From positions 1 through 22,600 of the IMG/VR virus record IMGVR_UViG_3300046003_004459: DNA of 22,600 nt; one strand, given 5' to 3'. Below the pieces are notes generated by a model. That model was not told where the DNA came from. It made no database searches and saw only the letters and a program-made list of their open reading frames with translations. The position numbers and the translations under genes were made by a program. Source of the stretch: a virus. Shown piece after piece: positions 14,152 to 22,270 of the stretch (position 1 is its first letter; the number at the start of each line of letters is the position of its first letter).

Positions 14152-17082
14152 TTGATAAACTTGGAAGATATAAAAGGCCGTTCAGCTTTGGATTTATTAG
14201 AAACCTATGAGGGTTATAATCCATACATTTTAGGTCTTAAAACTGAATATATAAAAAATAAAAAATTGTTGTTAACCGATACTCAATCTAGATATATCAT
14301 TGACAACATAGACAGGGACCCACTATATATAAATAGAGTGGTTAACATAACAGCGTACTTAGGTGAAGAAATAAAAACCAAATCAAGTTTAGATTTTACA
14401 CCAGAAAGAATTCTTATTGAATTTATGCTTGCTGAAACAGATAAAGCTTATCATGTTTATGGTAAACTAACCAAAAAAAGTGACTCAAAATTATTTTGGT
14501 TACCAAAAACACAAGTAACTGACGACCCATATTTTGAAGCTATAAGTGTTGATGTTGATTTTACTAAATATAACGATATCTTAAGTTTAGAGAATAAAAA
14601 ACTATACCAACATCAAGAAGAGGGTATTAAATTTTTATTGTCTAGAAACGGCTGTATACTCGCTGATGATATGGGTTTAGGTAAATTTTTTCCTACAAAA
14701 ACATCTATTTATACACCAAAAGGTAAGAAAAATATAGGTGATTTAGTAATTGGTGAAAATGTAATTGGTTCTAATGGTAAAGCCACTAAAGTAATGGGTA
14801 TATTCCCACAAGGTATTAAACCACAATATAGAATGACTTTTAATGATGGTTATTCTATATTGTGTGGCGGGGAACATTTATGGACTGTATCATCAAATAA
14901 TTCTGGTGAAAATTCTAAAAACAGAGAAAATAGATATGTAACGCTTAGTACTGAACAAATGTTAGATAAAAATCTAGAATTAGAACAAATTGGTACTGGT
15001 TGGAATGAAAAACGACCATATAAGTTTAAAACATATTATAAACAAAAAAATGGTGATTCTAAATGGCAAATACCAATTGTTAAACCAATACAATTTGATA
15101 ATGACGATATTTTACCAATTGAACCTTACTTATTAGGACTTGGGTTGGGTGATGGTTCATTTAAAGGTAAAAATATTAAATTTTCAGTTCATAAAGATGA
15201 TTTTGATGAAATGTTTGTCAATAATTTAATTAAAGAAAATAAATCACAAGATAATAAAAGAATTGGGTATATTAATGTTAATACATCTTTATTTGATTTA
15301 AAATTAGAACATACACGTTCACACACTAAATTTATACCAGAAATTTATAAATATTCTAGTATTGAAAATAGACTTGCTATATTACAAGGTCTTATGGATA
15401 CTGATGGTCATTGTATGAAATCAAAAAATGGTAAATTTAATGGTACTGAGTATTGTACTGTATCTGAAAGATTAGCTGATGATGTTGCAGAGATTGTACA
15501 TTCTTTGGGCGGTATTGTTAGAAAGAAAAGTAAAATTGGTTCGTATAAAAAAGAAGATGGAACAAAAGTTATTTGTAAACGTGCCTATAGATTAAATATT
15601 AAAATGCCAGAACAATTTAATCCATTCAGATTAAAAAGAAAATCAAATATATATTATCTACCAGAAAAATATAAGGTAGGTCGTTACATTAAAGATATAC
15701 AACTAGAAGGTGAAGATGATTCAGTTTGTATTGCTGTAGATGCGCCAGATAAATTATATGTTGTTGAACATGGTATTGTAACTCATAACACAACACAATC
15801 GATTATCGCTGCCATTGAAAGTGGGGCAAAAAAGATTCTAGTAGTTTGCCCATCTTCAACCAAAATAAATTGGGAGAGAGAAATAAATGTTTTTTGTAAT
15901 GATACCACAATAATTGATGGTAAAAAATTCTCTGATGCTAAATTTACCATTATTAATTTTGATATTCTTAAAAATTTTCACACACTTGTTAAAAAAGGTA
16001 AAGAAAATGAAACACCAACAATTCATAGACACTTAGCAGAAGCTGGTTTTGATTTATGTATAATTGATGAGGCTCACTATCTTAAAAATAATGATAGTAT
16101 CAGAGGTAAAATCATGGTTGAGCTATCTGTTAAATATAACATAACCAAAGTTTGGTTACTTACAGGAACTCCAGTCGCCAACAGACCAATGGATTTCTTT
16201 AATCTATTAAAGATTATTAAGTCTCCTATAGCACAAAATTGGCAACACTATGCCACAAGATATTGTGAAGGTAGAAAGTTCTTTAGAACGCTTAAAAATG
16301 GTCAGAAAAGACAAATATGGCTTACAGACGGTGCTAGCAATCTAGAAGAGTTGGCATCTAAAACAAAAAATATTGTATTGAGAAGACTTAAAGTAGATGT
16401 TTTAGATATGCCAGACAAGGTTATTACCCCAATGCACCATGTGTTAGACAATAAACAAAAAGCAGAATATGAATATTTATGGGAAGAATACATATTAGCA
16501 AAAAAAGCTCTTGGCAAACGTGTTAAAGAGGACCAAAAAGACTTAGTTGAGTTGATTTTACTTAGACAATTTATAGCTAAACAAGCCATACCTTATACAA
16601 TAGAAATGGTTGAAAATGCGGTAGAAATGGGTCGTAAGGTTATTGTTTTTACTAGTTTTACTGAAGAATTAAATACTATTTCAGAACATTTTGGTAAATC
16701 AGCTGTTAAACACAACGGACCAATGACTAACACAATGAAACAAAAGTCAGTAGATTCCTTTCAAAACAACGATAAAATCAAAGTGTTTGTTGGTAATATA
16801 AAATCAGCTGGTGTTGGTATCACACTTACAGAAGGTACTGTTGTTATTTTTAACTCATTTGATTGGGTTACAGGTAATAACGAACAAGCTGAAGACCGAG
16901 CTTTTCGTATTGGACAAAAAAATGATGTTAATGTTTACTATCAGTTATTTGACGATACAATATCAACTAGAATGTGGGATATGCTTAAAAATAAAAAAGA
17001 TGTTATAAACACAATATTAGGTGAAAAACAATTAACAGAAGAAGAAATAACAGAATTATTAATAGAAAAATTATATGAATAA
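14152..17082 (+). CDS. SNF2-family DNA helicase/translocase interrupted by an intein
   Basis: The 976-residue precursor becomes about 608 residues after removal of the 368-residue intein. Host-protein motifs in order: Walker A split as GLGK (175-178) and TT (547-548); DEAH box at 639-642; motif III TGTP at 671-674; a motif IV region starting VFTSFTEELN; and motif VI EQAEDRAFRIGQ (911-922), diagnostic of SNF2/Swi2 ATPases that translocate on double-stranded DNA and remodel forks or protein-DNA complexes. T4 uses a different SF2 helicase, UvsW, for fork regression; this protein may fill a similar role. The only usable in-frame starts near the promoter are TTG codons (14152, 14161); the nearby ATG at 14145 is out of frame and stops at once. 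The 3' end overlaps the glutaredoxin start by 8 nt, so the two are co-translated. Confidence 0.92.
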   Translation: MINLEDIKGRSALDLLETYEGYNPYILGLKTEYIKNKKLLLTDTQSRYIIDNIDRDPLYINRVVNITAYLGEEIKTKSSLDFTPERILIEFMLAETDKAYHVYGKLTKKSDSKLFWLPKTQVTDDPYFEAISVDVDFTKYNDILSLENKKLYQHQEEGIKFLLSRNGCILADDMGLGKFFPTKTSIYTPKGKKNIGDLVIGENVIGSNGKATKVMGIFPQGIKPQYRMTFNDGYSILCGGEHLWTVSSNNSGENSKNRENRYVTLSTEQMLDKNLELEQIGTGWNEKRPYKFKTYYKQKNGDSKWQIPIVKPIQFDNDDILPIEPYLLGLGLGDGSFKGKNIKFSVHKDDFDEMFVNNLIKENKSQDNKRIGYINVNTSLFDLKLEHTRSHTKFIPEIYKYSSIENRLAILQGLMDTDGHCMKSKNGKFNGTEYCTVSERLADDVAEIVHSLGGIVRKKSKIGSYKKEDGTKVICKRAYRLNIKMPEQFNPFRLKRKSNIYYLPEKYKVGRYIKDIQLEGEDDSVCIAVDAPDKLYVVEHGIVTHNTTQSIIAAIESGAKKILVVCPSSTKINWEREINVFCNDTTIIDGKKFSDAKFTIINFDILKNFHTLVKKGKENETPTIHRHLAEAGFDLCIIDEAHYLKNNDSIRGKIMVELSVKYNITKVWLLTGTPVANRPMDFFNLLKIIKSPIAQNWQHYATRYCEGRKFFRTLKNGQKRQIWLTDGASNLEELASKTKNIVLRRLKVDVLDMPDKVITPMHHVLDNKQKAEYEYLWEEYILAKKALGKRVKEDQKDLVELILLRQFIAKQAIPYTIEMVENAVEMGRKVIVFTSFTEELNTISEHFGKSAVKHNGPMTNTMKQKSVDSFQNNDKIKVFVGNIKSAGVGITLTEGTVVIFNSFDWVTGNNEQAEDRAFRIGQKNDVNVYYQLFDDTISTRMWDMLKNKKDVINTILGEKQLTEEEITELLIEKLYE
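14686..15789 (+). mobile_element. Class 3-type intein with LAGLIDADG homing endonuclease, inserted in the helicase Walker A motif
   Basis: Intein residues are F179 to N546 (368 aa). Block A begins FFPTKTSIYTPKGKKNIGDL, where position 1 is Phe (TTT) instead of Cys or Ser. Block B is CGGEHLWTV with H242 and W244. Two LAGLIDADG motifs follow: LLGLGLGDG (327-335, acidic D334) and LQGLMDTDG (411-419, acidic D418). Block F is CIAVDAP with C526, and block G ends VTHN with T544, H545 and N546; the +1 residue is T547. W244, C526 and T544 are the W-C-T triplet that defines class 3 inteins, which use the block F Cys rather than residue 1 as the first nucleophile. Both endonuclease catalytic Asp are present, so homing activity is probably intact. 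Splicing restores GLGKT, needed for ATP binding. Confidence 0.93.
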
Positions 17083-18544: not shown

Positions 18545-21500
18545 TTAGAAACCCCAATTATCTTCTGGTTTATCAATAACTGGTATTATTTCTGGTGATT
18601 TAGGTTCATCAACAACATAACCATCTGGTATCTCACTAATTGTGTCATCAAACTCATCATCTAACAACAATTCTTCATCTTTCCTAATGACGTTACCTTC
18701 TTCATCCTCTTCTATTCCATCATCTTCATCTTCATTTTCAGAATAAACACGTTTTTTCTTTTCCACGGTTGGTTTGTTGATAACAACCGAATCTGCTTTC
18801 TCTTTTAATTTACCCATCAATTCAAAATCATCGATTTCAACTTCATCTGTAATGATATTAATAGTTTCACCACTCATAATTCTATATTCTTCTAAATAAT
18901 CAAGCCATAATTCATAACGATTATCAGAATCAGAATATCGCTTAAGAGAATAAAACTTATCTCGTTCTATTGCTTCATTTTTATATTTGAATATTTCGCG
19001 TACATGACATAGAGATTCTTCCCATTTTCTAGAAACTAACATTCCATTTTCACCAATATCACATAAGATAAATACTTCAATAGGTAACTCACCATTTTTT
19101 CGAACATTTTTTAAATCTTCTACTTCTAAATGTTTGAATACGTTATCTAACTTATTTTTTTCGTCAACAATACCCTCTTGTTTTGAAATTATCATCCTTT
19201 CATTATAATCAATTCTGATTCTTTCCCATTCATCAAGTTCCATGTTGTTAGGGGGTTTATTTACACTTTGCCAGAATCTAATTTCTTTATCTTCCATAGT
19301 CATTAGTTCTTCATAAGAATCTTGGTCACCATTTTTAAATGGTATACCCGAAATCAAACTGCATTGTGATTTAGTAAAGATAGTTTTTTCTTTAAGAACT
19401 TCAAATGTTTTTTTGGTTTCTTTATCTTTAAATTTAATAATACTCAAAAGTACTTTATCCCTAACTTCTGGGTCAAAACAAACTAACAAAGGTTTAACTT
19501 TTTTGTTAAATGATTCTAAGTATTTTGCAACGTTATATTCCTCAGTAAATAAAGTCTCTTCTAATACATTTATCCTACTAGTAAATTCACTAATATCACC
19601 ACCTTCTTCTCTTACCTTATCGATAGCTTTTTTAAGCATTTCAAGCTCCTTAATTGCATCAAAATCCCTTTCAATGGTGTCTGGCATTATAAGCTTACAA
19701 TTTATGTTTAATTTGCTCTTAGCTTCTGGTGGTATTGATTCTTGACCGTTGTTAACATACCATTTCTCAAGTTGTCTTTTGGTCATTCTATTTTCCCAAA
19801 CTGTTTGTAAATCACCTTGAGATTTAGAAGTACCTACGTTAATGTAATACAAAACGTCACCCAAAGTAACATCCAATTTGTTTAACATAGCTAATTCCAT
19901 GTGAGCTTGTTTTGGTAAAGGGTTACCAGCTTTGTTTTTCATCTTAGCTTTTTTCTTGTAATCTGCAATAGTTATTTTTACCTTAGATTTAGAAGCCATT
20001 TTAATAAGAGGTATTTTGTAATTGTATATCTTATCAACGTATTCATAATAATGATTTATAAATGAGTAACCGTCACCATCCAACAACATACGAATACCTT
20101 TATTTAAAAATTCTTCAATATAAACTGGCATTTTTTTAGATTTGATTGAGTTCCCAACCAACTTAATCTTTCCACCAATATCGTTAGCGTAGTTTTTTCT
20201 AGCAAAATTAATTGTAGAACTACAAACATCATCTAAATCCAACCCCATACGACCAATCATAAAAGTCTCGTTGAATTCTGCCAACACAGCGTCAATCCCG
20301 TAAAGAGTTTTTCCAGCATCGTCAGTGGTTTTCCAATGCGAACCTTTGGCAAGGTATGAAAAAGATTCTATATTTTCAGGACCAGCAAAGTTACAACCAT
20401 CCGTATCTAATACTAGTGCTCTAAAACCATATTTTTCGGTAAAATGCTTTACCATCAATCTTAAGTATTGTCTACCTCTACATGTAGTTTCTTCAGCCGA
20501 GTCAGTATCACCCCAATTAAAAATATAAGGTGCACCATAAGAACCAAACCAAGAGTTCGCTAGAATTTTAAGTGGCAACTGTTTTTTATCGTATAAGTTG
20601 GCCAACGCTTTGTGTTCTTGTGTTTCTTTTTTAAGTTCATCTATTTCAACCTGTGACATAGTTTCACCTCCTTCTTTCAACTTCTTTTCTAACCCCTTAG
20701 TAATACCTTTTTCTTTACCATTTAAAAATTTAAATTTATCCCTAGTATCAACGATATAAGTAAGTGTACCTTCCATCACACCTGTAATATCTAGGTCTGG
20801 GAAAATGCTATGCGTTAATTGTGTTTTAGGGTACAACGCAGCAAAATCTAATTTATAAACATTTCTAGCAAAACCCACTTCTAACAAACGAGACAAACCA
20901 CCAGTAAAATCTCTTTTAGCTTGTGTCTCTGGGATGGCCAAACCGTTCTCATAGGACCATGCCGACATAATAAGTTTCCATTGTCCAGCGGTACCCATTG
21001 TTGAAGAACGTTGAAAAGTGGTTGGTAGCATTTTAGAAATAAGGAAACTGGCTTGGTTGAATATATTATCAATTTGTTCAGTTTCCCAAAGGTCGTCAAT
21101 CAAATATCTTTGAACAATATAAGCACCTGTTTTAACAACATAACCTTCTTGTAATGGGTTGGTTTCAGATATTTTATACCAATCACCGTTTAAATCGTTT
21201 AACGCGTATTTATTTTCCTTGTCAGCCCACGTGGTGTTTATTTTATCACCTTGTACATATATACGGTTAGGTTTTGCAATTTCAGAATATTGAGTGATAT
21301 ACTTCAACCCCCAAGACTTTATTTCAGAGTTGATAGCCATAGCTCTACGAACAGCATGTGAAATATCTATTATGTTATAACCAAACATATGTGTTTGATT
21401 ATATGCTTCTGTTTCACCACCTAATTTAAGTGTTGCTGATTTTCTTCTTATTTTAGAAGCTCTGCTTAATGTGGTTGCAACTTCCGTAACTGGTAAACCT

Positions 21501-22270
21501 AATCGTTCCGCTCTCTCAAATATAAATGGCCAGTCAAAATTTTCTGAGTTATAACCAGCAATAACATCTGGTTTTAAAAACTCAATAATTTTAAAAAATT
21601 TAACCATATTTTGACGTTCACTTTCACGTCTTTCTTTCGGGGTATCACCTAAAGTTTCAAGGACTTTTTCATTGCCTCTATTATCTTTAATACCAACTTG
21701 AAATATAGCGTCTCTAGTTGCAAATAAACCTTCAGTTTCTAAGTCAAATTGAAGTCTGTGTAATTCATTATAATCTTCAAACCCTTTAAATAACCTCTTA
21801 CCAGTTTGAATTAGAAATTGCTCAGTAGGGCTAAACATTATAAAAGATTTTCTATGTTCTTCACCAAAGATATCAATACCACCGTTTTTGAAAAAAGTAA
21901 TTAAATCGTTGGATGATTTTTTACACTTGGCTAAATAAATATAGCCGTTTTTTAATCTATCTGGTATAAAACCATCGTCAGTCCAAGTTCTCAATTTAGT
22001 TATTTTAACACCAAATTGACTAGAAGCTTCAATAGTTTTCATTCGCTTACCTTGATATAGATATTGGGTAATATCCTCTTTAAACCAAAGAAATGGTTCA
22101 TACTTATGGTCTTCAGTGTACTTACCTCTACCATTTACATCATTAATTACCATGGTAACATAAGGTTTATCATAATAAGATTCTACTGCTACGATATGAT
22201 TTGTGGGGTCACTACCTTGTAAGAAAGATTCTATTCTCTCACTGCTTACTTTTTGTTTAGTATGGCTCAT
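18545..22270 (-). CDS. Replicative DNA polymerase, family B, with 3'-5' exonuclease and a long acidic C-terminal extension
   Basis: A 1241-residue polymerase. Exonuclease motifs: Exo I FDLETE with D176 and E178; Exo II NSENFD with D246; Exo III YLIDD with Y389 and D393. Polymerase motifs: A DFAALYP (D475-P481), B KILANSWFGSYG (K568-G579), and C LDTDG with D622 and D624. All catalytic acids are present, so it should synthesise and proofread. It is far longer than T4 gp43 (898 aa). The C-terminal 200 or so residues continue past the thumb region with a charged domain and an acidic tail (about 1170-1215, with runs such as ENEDEDDGIEEDEEGN), ending EDNWGF. That last hydrophobic tip could be a sliding-clamp-binding peptide, as in other family B polymerases, but this is inference. 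Its own promoter lies at 22286-22316. Confidence 0.96.
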   Translation of the reverse strand: MSHTKQKVSSERIESFLQGSDPTNHIVAVESYYDKPYVTMVINDVNGRGKYTEDHKYEPFLWFKEDITQYLYQGKRMKTIEASSQFGVKITKLRTWTDDGFIPDRLKNGYIYLAKCKKSSNDLITFFKNGGIDIFGEEHRKSFIMFSPTEQFLIQTGKRLFKGFEDYNELHRLQFDLETEGLFATRDAIFQVGIKDNRGNEKVLETLGDTPKERRESERQNMVKFFKIIEFLKPDVIAGYNSENFDWPFIFERAERLGLPVTEVATTLSRASKIRRKSATLKLGGETEAYNQTHMFGYNIIDISHAVRRAMAINSEIKSWGLKYITQYSEIAKPNRIYVQGDKINTTWADKENKYALNDLNGDWYKISETNPLQEGYVVKTGAYIVQRYLIDDLWETEQIDNIFNQASFLISKMLPTTFQRSSTMGTAGQWKLIMSAWSYENGLAIPETQAKRDFTGGLSRLLEVGFARNVYKLDFAALYPKTQLTHSIFPDLDITGVMEGTLTYIVDTRDKFKFLNGKEKGITKGLEKKLKEGGETMSQVEIDELKKETQEHKALANLYDKKQLPLKILANSWFGSYGAPYIFNWGDTDSAEETTCRGRQYLRLMVKHFTEKYGFRALVLDTDGCNFAGPENIESFSYLAKGSHWKTTDDAGKTLYGIDAVLAEFNETFMIGRMGLDLDDVCSSTINFARKNYANDIGGKIKLVGNSIKSKKMPVYIEEFLNKGIRMLLDGDGYSFINHYYEYVDKIYNYKIPLIKMASKSKVKITIADYKKKAKMKNKAGNPLPKQAHMELAMLNKLDVTLGDVLYYINVGTSKSQGDLQTVWENRMTKRQLEKWYVNNGQESIPPEAKSKLNINCKLIMPDTIERDFDAIKELEMLKKAIDKVREEGGDISEFTSRINVLEETLFTEEYNVAKYLESFNKKVKPLLVCFDPEVRDKVLLSIIKFKDKETKKTFEVLKEKTIFTKSQCSLISGIPFKNGDQDSYEELMTMEDKEIRFWQSVNKPPNNMELDEWERIRIDYNERMIISKQEGIVDEKNKLDNVFKHLEVEDLKNVRKNGELPIEVFILCDIGENGMLVSRKWEESLCHVREIFKYKNEAIERDKFYSLKRYSDSDNRYELWLDYLEEYRIMSGETINIITDEVEIDDFELMGKLKEKADSVVINKPTVEKKKRVYSENEDEDDGIEEDEEGNVIRKDEELLLDDEFDDTISEIPDGYVVDEPKSPEIIPVIDKPEDNWGF

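Follow-up and report, generated by a model that had tools for sequence, protein, structure and literature searches.

Insertion of the element into a phage helicase gene

The stretch of viral DNA analysed here (the window, 22,600 nucleotides) carries a helicase gene whose Walker A motif is interrupted by an intein beginning with Phe, a non-nucleophilic residue, which raises the questions of how such an element could splice and how it came by its first residue. The host gene is an open reading frame on the plus strand (14152–17082) coding for a phage SNF2 helicase of 976 aa, in which Pfam recognises both domains that define this family, SNF2-rel_dom (PF00176, 4.1e-31) and Helicase_C (PF00271, 1.2e-12). 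The SNF2 match is interrupted by matches to LAGLIDADG_3 and Hom_end, and the insert comprises residues 179–546, encoded in frame by positions 14686–15789. It splits the Walker A motif between Lys and Thr (ADDMGLGK/T, i.e., GLGK/T), and the Lys/Thr boundary of the P-loop has been called a classic intein insertion site (PMC5050341). Three viral contigs (L060–L062) code for the same helicase with an uninterrupted GLGKTTQS; their exteins are 88–92% identical and match residues 1–178 and 547–976, with nothing in between. Because these empty sites show the joined exteins, both junctions are exact, and the boundaries of the first-pass annotation proved correct to the base, spanning exactly the 368 intein codons. 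The empty sites likewise bear out its placement of the insert in Walker A, and since the motif is split by the insert, its view that ATPase activity depends on splicing is supported as an expectation. The reading frame starts with TTG at position 14152 of the window, without a clear Shine-Dalgarno sequence. The features of the gene are as follows, all on the plus strand, with the evidence in brackets:

14152–14685, +: N-extein, SNF2 helicase residues 1–178, ending in DDMGLGK of Walker A (presumed TTG start)
14686–15789, +: class 3 intein of 368 aa, F1 to N368 (empty sites, alignment, predicted structure)
14686–14688, +: Phe1 (TTT), non-nucleophilic first residue (sequence, family alignment)
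14866–14868, +: Gly61, block B position 7 (B7), co-varying with residue 1 (family alignments)
14875–14877, +: His64, block B position 10, invariant (family alignment)
14881–14883, +: Trp66, block B position 12 (B12), W of the WCT triplet (PDB and family alignment)
15130–15156, +: first LAGLIDADG motif, LLGLGLGDG (Pfam, sequence)
15382–15408, +: second LAGLIDADG motif, LQGLMDTDG (Pfam, sequence)
15727–15729, +: Cys348, block F position 4 (F4), putative initiating nucleophile, C of WCT (PDB and family alignment)
15781–15789, +: Thr366-His367-Asn368, block G positions 5–7, T of WCT and C-terminal junction (family alignment)
15790–15792, +: Thr+1 (T547), the Walker A threonine, putative second branch point (family alignment)
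15790–17079, +: C-extein, remaining SNF2 ATPase domain and Helicase_C (Pfam)

The two LAGLIDADG motifs are those expected of a LAGLIDADG homing intein, and the endonuclease is apparently intact, as judged from its sequence. Elsewhere in the window, the minus strand (18545–22270) codes for a family B DNA polymerase of 1241 aa. It has a long extension at its C terminus and DTDG instead of the customary DTDS, and its matches, in phages of Salinibacter, Nostoc and Stenotrophomonas, are distant. A second intein was suspected in this polymerase, which showed neither an intein-like junction nor a match to the intein profile.

Assignment to class 3

A search against PDB sequences aligned H64, W66 and C348 of the insert with His65, Trp67 and Cys124 of the class 3 intein Mch DnaB1 (6rix), and His, Trp and Cys at these positions are the published signature of class 3 (PMC5222942; PMC7664689). 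Together with Phe1 in place of Cys, Ser or Thr, the terminal T366-H367-N368 and T547 at the +1 position, all residues expected of the class are present. An AlphaFold2 model calculated from 27 relatives reached a mean pLDDT of 88.8, and the predicted structure has the HINT fold, matching class 3 structures at Z values of 18.6–19.1. Of the solved mini-inteins, two of class 3 matched the model best, Msm DnaBi1 (6bs8; Z 19.1, rmsd 1.5 Å over 123 residues) and Mch DnaB1 (Z 18.6), ahead of gp41-1 (Z 17.2). Full-length PI-SceI, which came first, and other endonuclease-bearing inteins outranked the class 3 mini-inteins in these structure searches because their endonuclease domain matches as well. In a tree covering the family and class 3 inteins of other phages and of bacteria, the intein grouped with the latter.

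Two other assignments were rejected. Class 1 does not fit Phe1, where Cys, Ser or Thr would stand, and class 2, represented by KlbA with Ala1, Cys+1, Ser at G6 and Asp at F4, does not fit an intein with Phe1, Thr+1, His at G6 and Cys at F4 in an SNF2 host; the residues at positions 1, F4, G6 and +1 thus exclude both. By its sequence and modelled fold the insert is a class 3 intein, as the first-pass annotation had proposed from F179, W244, C526 and T544 (intein F1, W66, C348 and T366), and its block assignment held against Trp67 and Cys124 of Mch DnaB1.

Relation to known inteins

The first-pass annotation had called class 3 inteins uncommon and knew of no SNF2-helicase host. Neither statement can be maintained, since a 2020 survey of the nr database counted 1701 class 3 inteins, defined by the lack of Cys1 and the presence of Cys F4 (PMC7891396), and the Snf2 intein of Deinococcus radiodurans is long known, being described as an experimentally characterised class 3 intein in a citation of Brace et al. 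2010 (in PMC3196547). The latter shares the class, the SNF2-family helicase host and the initiation from the block F Cys, but has a bacterial host; it was compared by description only. Records of named phages (L001, L002, L003, L008) also contain class 3 inteins at GK/T or GK/S in SNF2-domain proteins; the SNF2-type helicases with such inteins are those of Erythrobacter phage vB_EliS-L02, Brevundimonas phage Papperlapapp, Aeromonas phage CF8 and a 484-kb uncultured phage. These inteins and that of the Mycobacterium phage Pinkcreek helicase, which has a Pfam match to Helicase_C and none to SNF2, resemble the window's intein in their GK/T or GK/S site, W/C/T triplet and LAGLIDADG domain; the phage inteins differ by Ala, Gly or Met as residue 1 and by only about 25–31% identity over the matched protein. 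The MP-Catera Gp206 intein (Catera, NC_008207, DQ398053) is another characterised intein.

The best mini-intein structural matches, Msm DnaBi1 (6bs8) and Mch DnaB1 (6rix, 6riy), share the aligned His, Trp and Cys, but Msm DnaBi1 has Ala1, Asp at B7, Ser+1, no endonuclease domain and a DnaB host. The strongest PDB sequence match of the N-terminal half, gp41-1, also ends in Thr-His-Asn, but its Cys1, Phe at B12 and Asp at F4 make it a class 1 intein. The intein of the window adds one more example to a class that is already well described, in a known type of host; what the analysis contributes is the turnover of the first residue in the family, the coupling of this residue to B7 and the natural relatives carrying both Cys1 and Cys F4, which fall outside the 1701 counted inteins because the survey's definition requires the lack of Cys1.

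Conservation within the family

Scans of viral contigs, for which the whole protein and an intein alignment served as queries, gave well over 60 loci carrying the intein at the GK/T site; one scan of genome contigs yielded four loci, none from Deinococcus. We compared 63 representatives of less than 95% identity, eleven of them distant class 3 inteins of phages and bacteria, and found H64, C348, T366, H367 and N368 to be invariant (63/63). As these residues persist even in the distant inteins, the catalytic pattern is not due to chance. Position 66 is Trp in 55 and Phe in 8 of the 63, so that Trp is dispensable here within the family. The first residue varied widely (16 Ala, 12 Cys, 11 Phe, 9 Gly, 6 Met, 3 Leu, 2 Ser, 2 Glu, 1 Val; one row was misparsed), and every Cys1 member has kept Cys F4. 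An invariant Cys F4 beside a variable residue 1 is expected if the former acts as nucleophile and the latter does not, and the alignment indicates that orthologous inteins freely replace their first residue (A, C, F, G, M, L, S, E, V), with Cys F4 staying fixed.

Several variants were observed along the way. The intein of L064 and L035 has only 311 aa, about 60 residues less than other members, and is possibly losing its endonuclease region. Related inteins in the PhoH protein of Lactococcus phage LW81 (L153, Cys1) and the RNA ligase of Staphylococcus phage CF5 (L154, Ala1) have Cys F4 and Ile instead of Trp at B12. Nine relatives (L012, L013, L023, L024, L025, L047, L051, L052, L053) carry a second intein in this helicase, within motif VI after EDR, at about residue 917 of the window's protein, which lacks it. 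This second intein is class 1-like (Cys1, Cys+1, Asp in block F within YDLSV) and incomplete in L053, where it lies at the contig end; one helicase can thus harbour inteins of both kinds, class 3 and class 1-like.

Mobility and selection

Compared with the relative L012, the intein is 95.2% identical at the DNA level, whereas the N- and C-exteins are only 71.9% and 69.5% identical, and the identity drops sharply at both intein junctions. Accordingly, dS is 0.14–0.23 in the intein vs. about 1.4 in the exteins, while dN/dS is 0.07–0.25 in the splicing and endonuclease parts and 0.06–0.22 in the exteins. This gap in divergence, the low dN/dS and the empty sites indicate that the element moves horizontally and is maintained.

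History of the first residue

We calculated a tree without residue 1, in which the eleven distant class 3 inteins from phages and bacteria served as outgroup. The Cys1 inteins fall within the family, and none of the eleven inteins on the outgroup side has Cys1. Under equal-cost parsimony, Cys1 was gained three times and lost twice within the family; costing a gain as three losses changed this to one gain and seven losses. The N-terminal part does not tolerate all Cys1 rows as a single group (p-AU 4e-36), and this part (residues 2–72) has a different history from the rest of the intein (100–368). All Phe1 rows stand together in the N-part tree, with a support of 90 that is not decisive, while the rest of the intein rejects this clade (p-AU 0.02); conversely, the N part rejects the clade holding the window in the tree of the rest (p-AU 0.005). 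These p-AU values are optimistic because some groups were named after the trees had been seen. Beyond a 95% twin of the window, the nearest rows have Phe1 for the N part and Leu1 for the rest, in neither case Cys1.

The exteins of L023 and L025 are 94–100% identical at the DNA level, while their inteins show only 68–77% identity over the first 60 residues and 61–76% over residues 150–210, the remainder being mostly 89–100% identical. The same picture, strongly different residues 1–60 and 150–210 amid nearly identical exteins and remaining intein, was seen for L023 compared with both L025 and L022, as in a block exchange inside the intein. The trees and these identities indicate that N-terminal halves are exchanged between inteins, so Phe1 most likely arrived with an old N-terminal module and not via a recent TGT-to-TTT change. 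Some family members have probably regained Cys1.

Covariation of residue 1 with block B position 7

All 22 inteins of the initial set with Phe, Met, Leu or Glu as residue 1 have Gly61, and all nine with Gly1 have Asp61. We enlarged this set to 151 representatives of less than 80% identity at GK sites; two of them, L005 and L159, carry Gly at F4 and probably belong to class 1. Gly61 accompanied a bulky first residue (E, F, M, L, D, Q) in 30/30 cases, compared with 1/121 of the others (p 7.7e-31, uncorrected for kinship). Thirteen independent pairs comprised 12 concordant, no discordant and one uninformative pair (p 0.0005). A link of Cys1 with Thr or Ser at B7 (6/12 vs. 2/50) failed the same test of independent pairs and was dropped.

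A held-out set of 79 inteins at GK sites, less than 80% identical to the earlier ones, agreed only in part with the rule for bulky residues. Gly61 occurred in none of 62 inteins with Ala, Gly, Ser or Cys as residue 1 and in only 8 of the 17 that begin otherwise (p 9e-7; Val was counted as bulky here, but as small in the earlier set, where it had Cys61), the exceptions being inteins with Arg, Met, Pro and two of four with Leu. Gly61 thus predicts a bulky residue 1 nearly always, but the converse fails in some lineages. Asp61 accompanied Gly1 in 16/16 cases of the 151 set and 5/5 held-out cases (21/21 together). The AceL NrdHF intein, which has Ser at B7, lost splicing upon an A1G exchange (PMC7891396), and this is consistent with Gly1 needing Asp at B7. 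We found no earlier description of the coupling in a literature search of limited coverage.

Splicing model and alternative explanations

We are confident that the element is an active, mobile class 3 intein which splices, restores Walker A and homes as follows. Cys348 would attack the peptide bond preceding Phe1 to form a branched thioester at block F, the N-extein would be transferred to Thr+1, and cyclisation of Asn368 would release the exteins joined as GLGK-T, thereby restoring the Walker A motif so that the helicase could bind ATP. Phe1 would not act as a nucleophile, and its bulk probably fits because the intein has Gly at the neighbouring B7, a position mostly taken by Asp, Cys, Ser or Thr. 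The LAGLIDADG domain would cut intein-free alleles at the conserved GK/T codons and thus spread the element.

Splicing, the order of its steps, the endonuclease activity and the steric basis of the covariation are inferred. Alternatively, the intein could have lost splicing, leaving the gene a relic; a decayed class 3 intein is known (Arsp-FB24 Arth_1007; PMC3196547). That relic lacks Cys F4, whereas here all catalytic positions and the helicase domains on both sides are intact and dN/dS against L012 is as low in the intein (0.07–0.25) as in the exteins (0.06–0.22), which makes decay very improbable. Least probable of all is a class 2 route, in which Thr+1 would attack the N-terminal junction directly and Cys348 would be only structural: residue 1 is no nucleophile in class 2 either, but that class consists of KlbA orthologues with Ala1, Cys+1, Ser G6 and Asp F4 (PMC4031507; PMC7765530), at odds with the Thr+1, His G6 and Cys F4 found here, the last of these in 63/63 representatives.

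The TTT codon is one base from TGT, as the first-pass annotation noted with a view to a loss at residue 1, and 12/63 representatives have Cys1. From this one might conclude that an ancestral Cys1 was lately changed to Phe1 by a point mutation and that the Cys1 relatives show an ancestral class 1 state. We regard this as very unlikely, given an outgroup of eleven class 3 inteins without Cys1, the three gains against two losses in equal-cost parsimony, the grouping of the Phe1 rows in the N part (support 90, not decisive) and Phe1 or Leu1, not Cys1, in the nearest rows. The module exchange favoured instead offers an explanation for the covariation as well, since residue 1 and B7 travel together when N-terminal halves are swapped as blocks; linked inheritance without physical contact would also agree with the held-out exceptions. 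We consider it unlikely, although less so than the other alternatives. Of the entropy of the residue-1 size class, column 61 accounts for 0.74 and the next column for 0.28, an effect in which other columns of the same module have no part; in a tree calculated without columns 1 and 61, bulky residue 1 changes at least 21 times and Gly61 at least 22 times; and in the published structure of Msm DnaBi1, Asp62 at B7 lies near Ala1 (PMC6195587). A steric basis of the coupling therefore seems the better explanation, although the held-out exceptions show that it does not apply strictly.

Implications for class 3 inteins

The family is useful because it offers many orthologous inteins at one site in which residue 1 has repeatedly changed and the block F Cys has not. 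As a tentative proposal, which we think may well turn out otherwise, residue 1 and B7 could form a size-matched pair that enables free change of the first residue, and the relatives with Cys1 and Cys F4 could be natural two-nucleophile inteins in which Cys1 was regained within the class 3 lineage, so that the passage between the class 3 and class 1 mechanisms could proceed via a functional and not a dead state. Class 3 inteins have no conserved residue at B7 (PMC7891396); the coupling to residue 1 may explain this and yields a testable rule.
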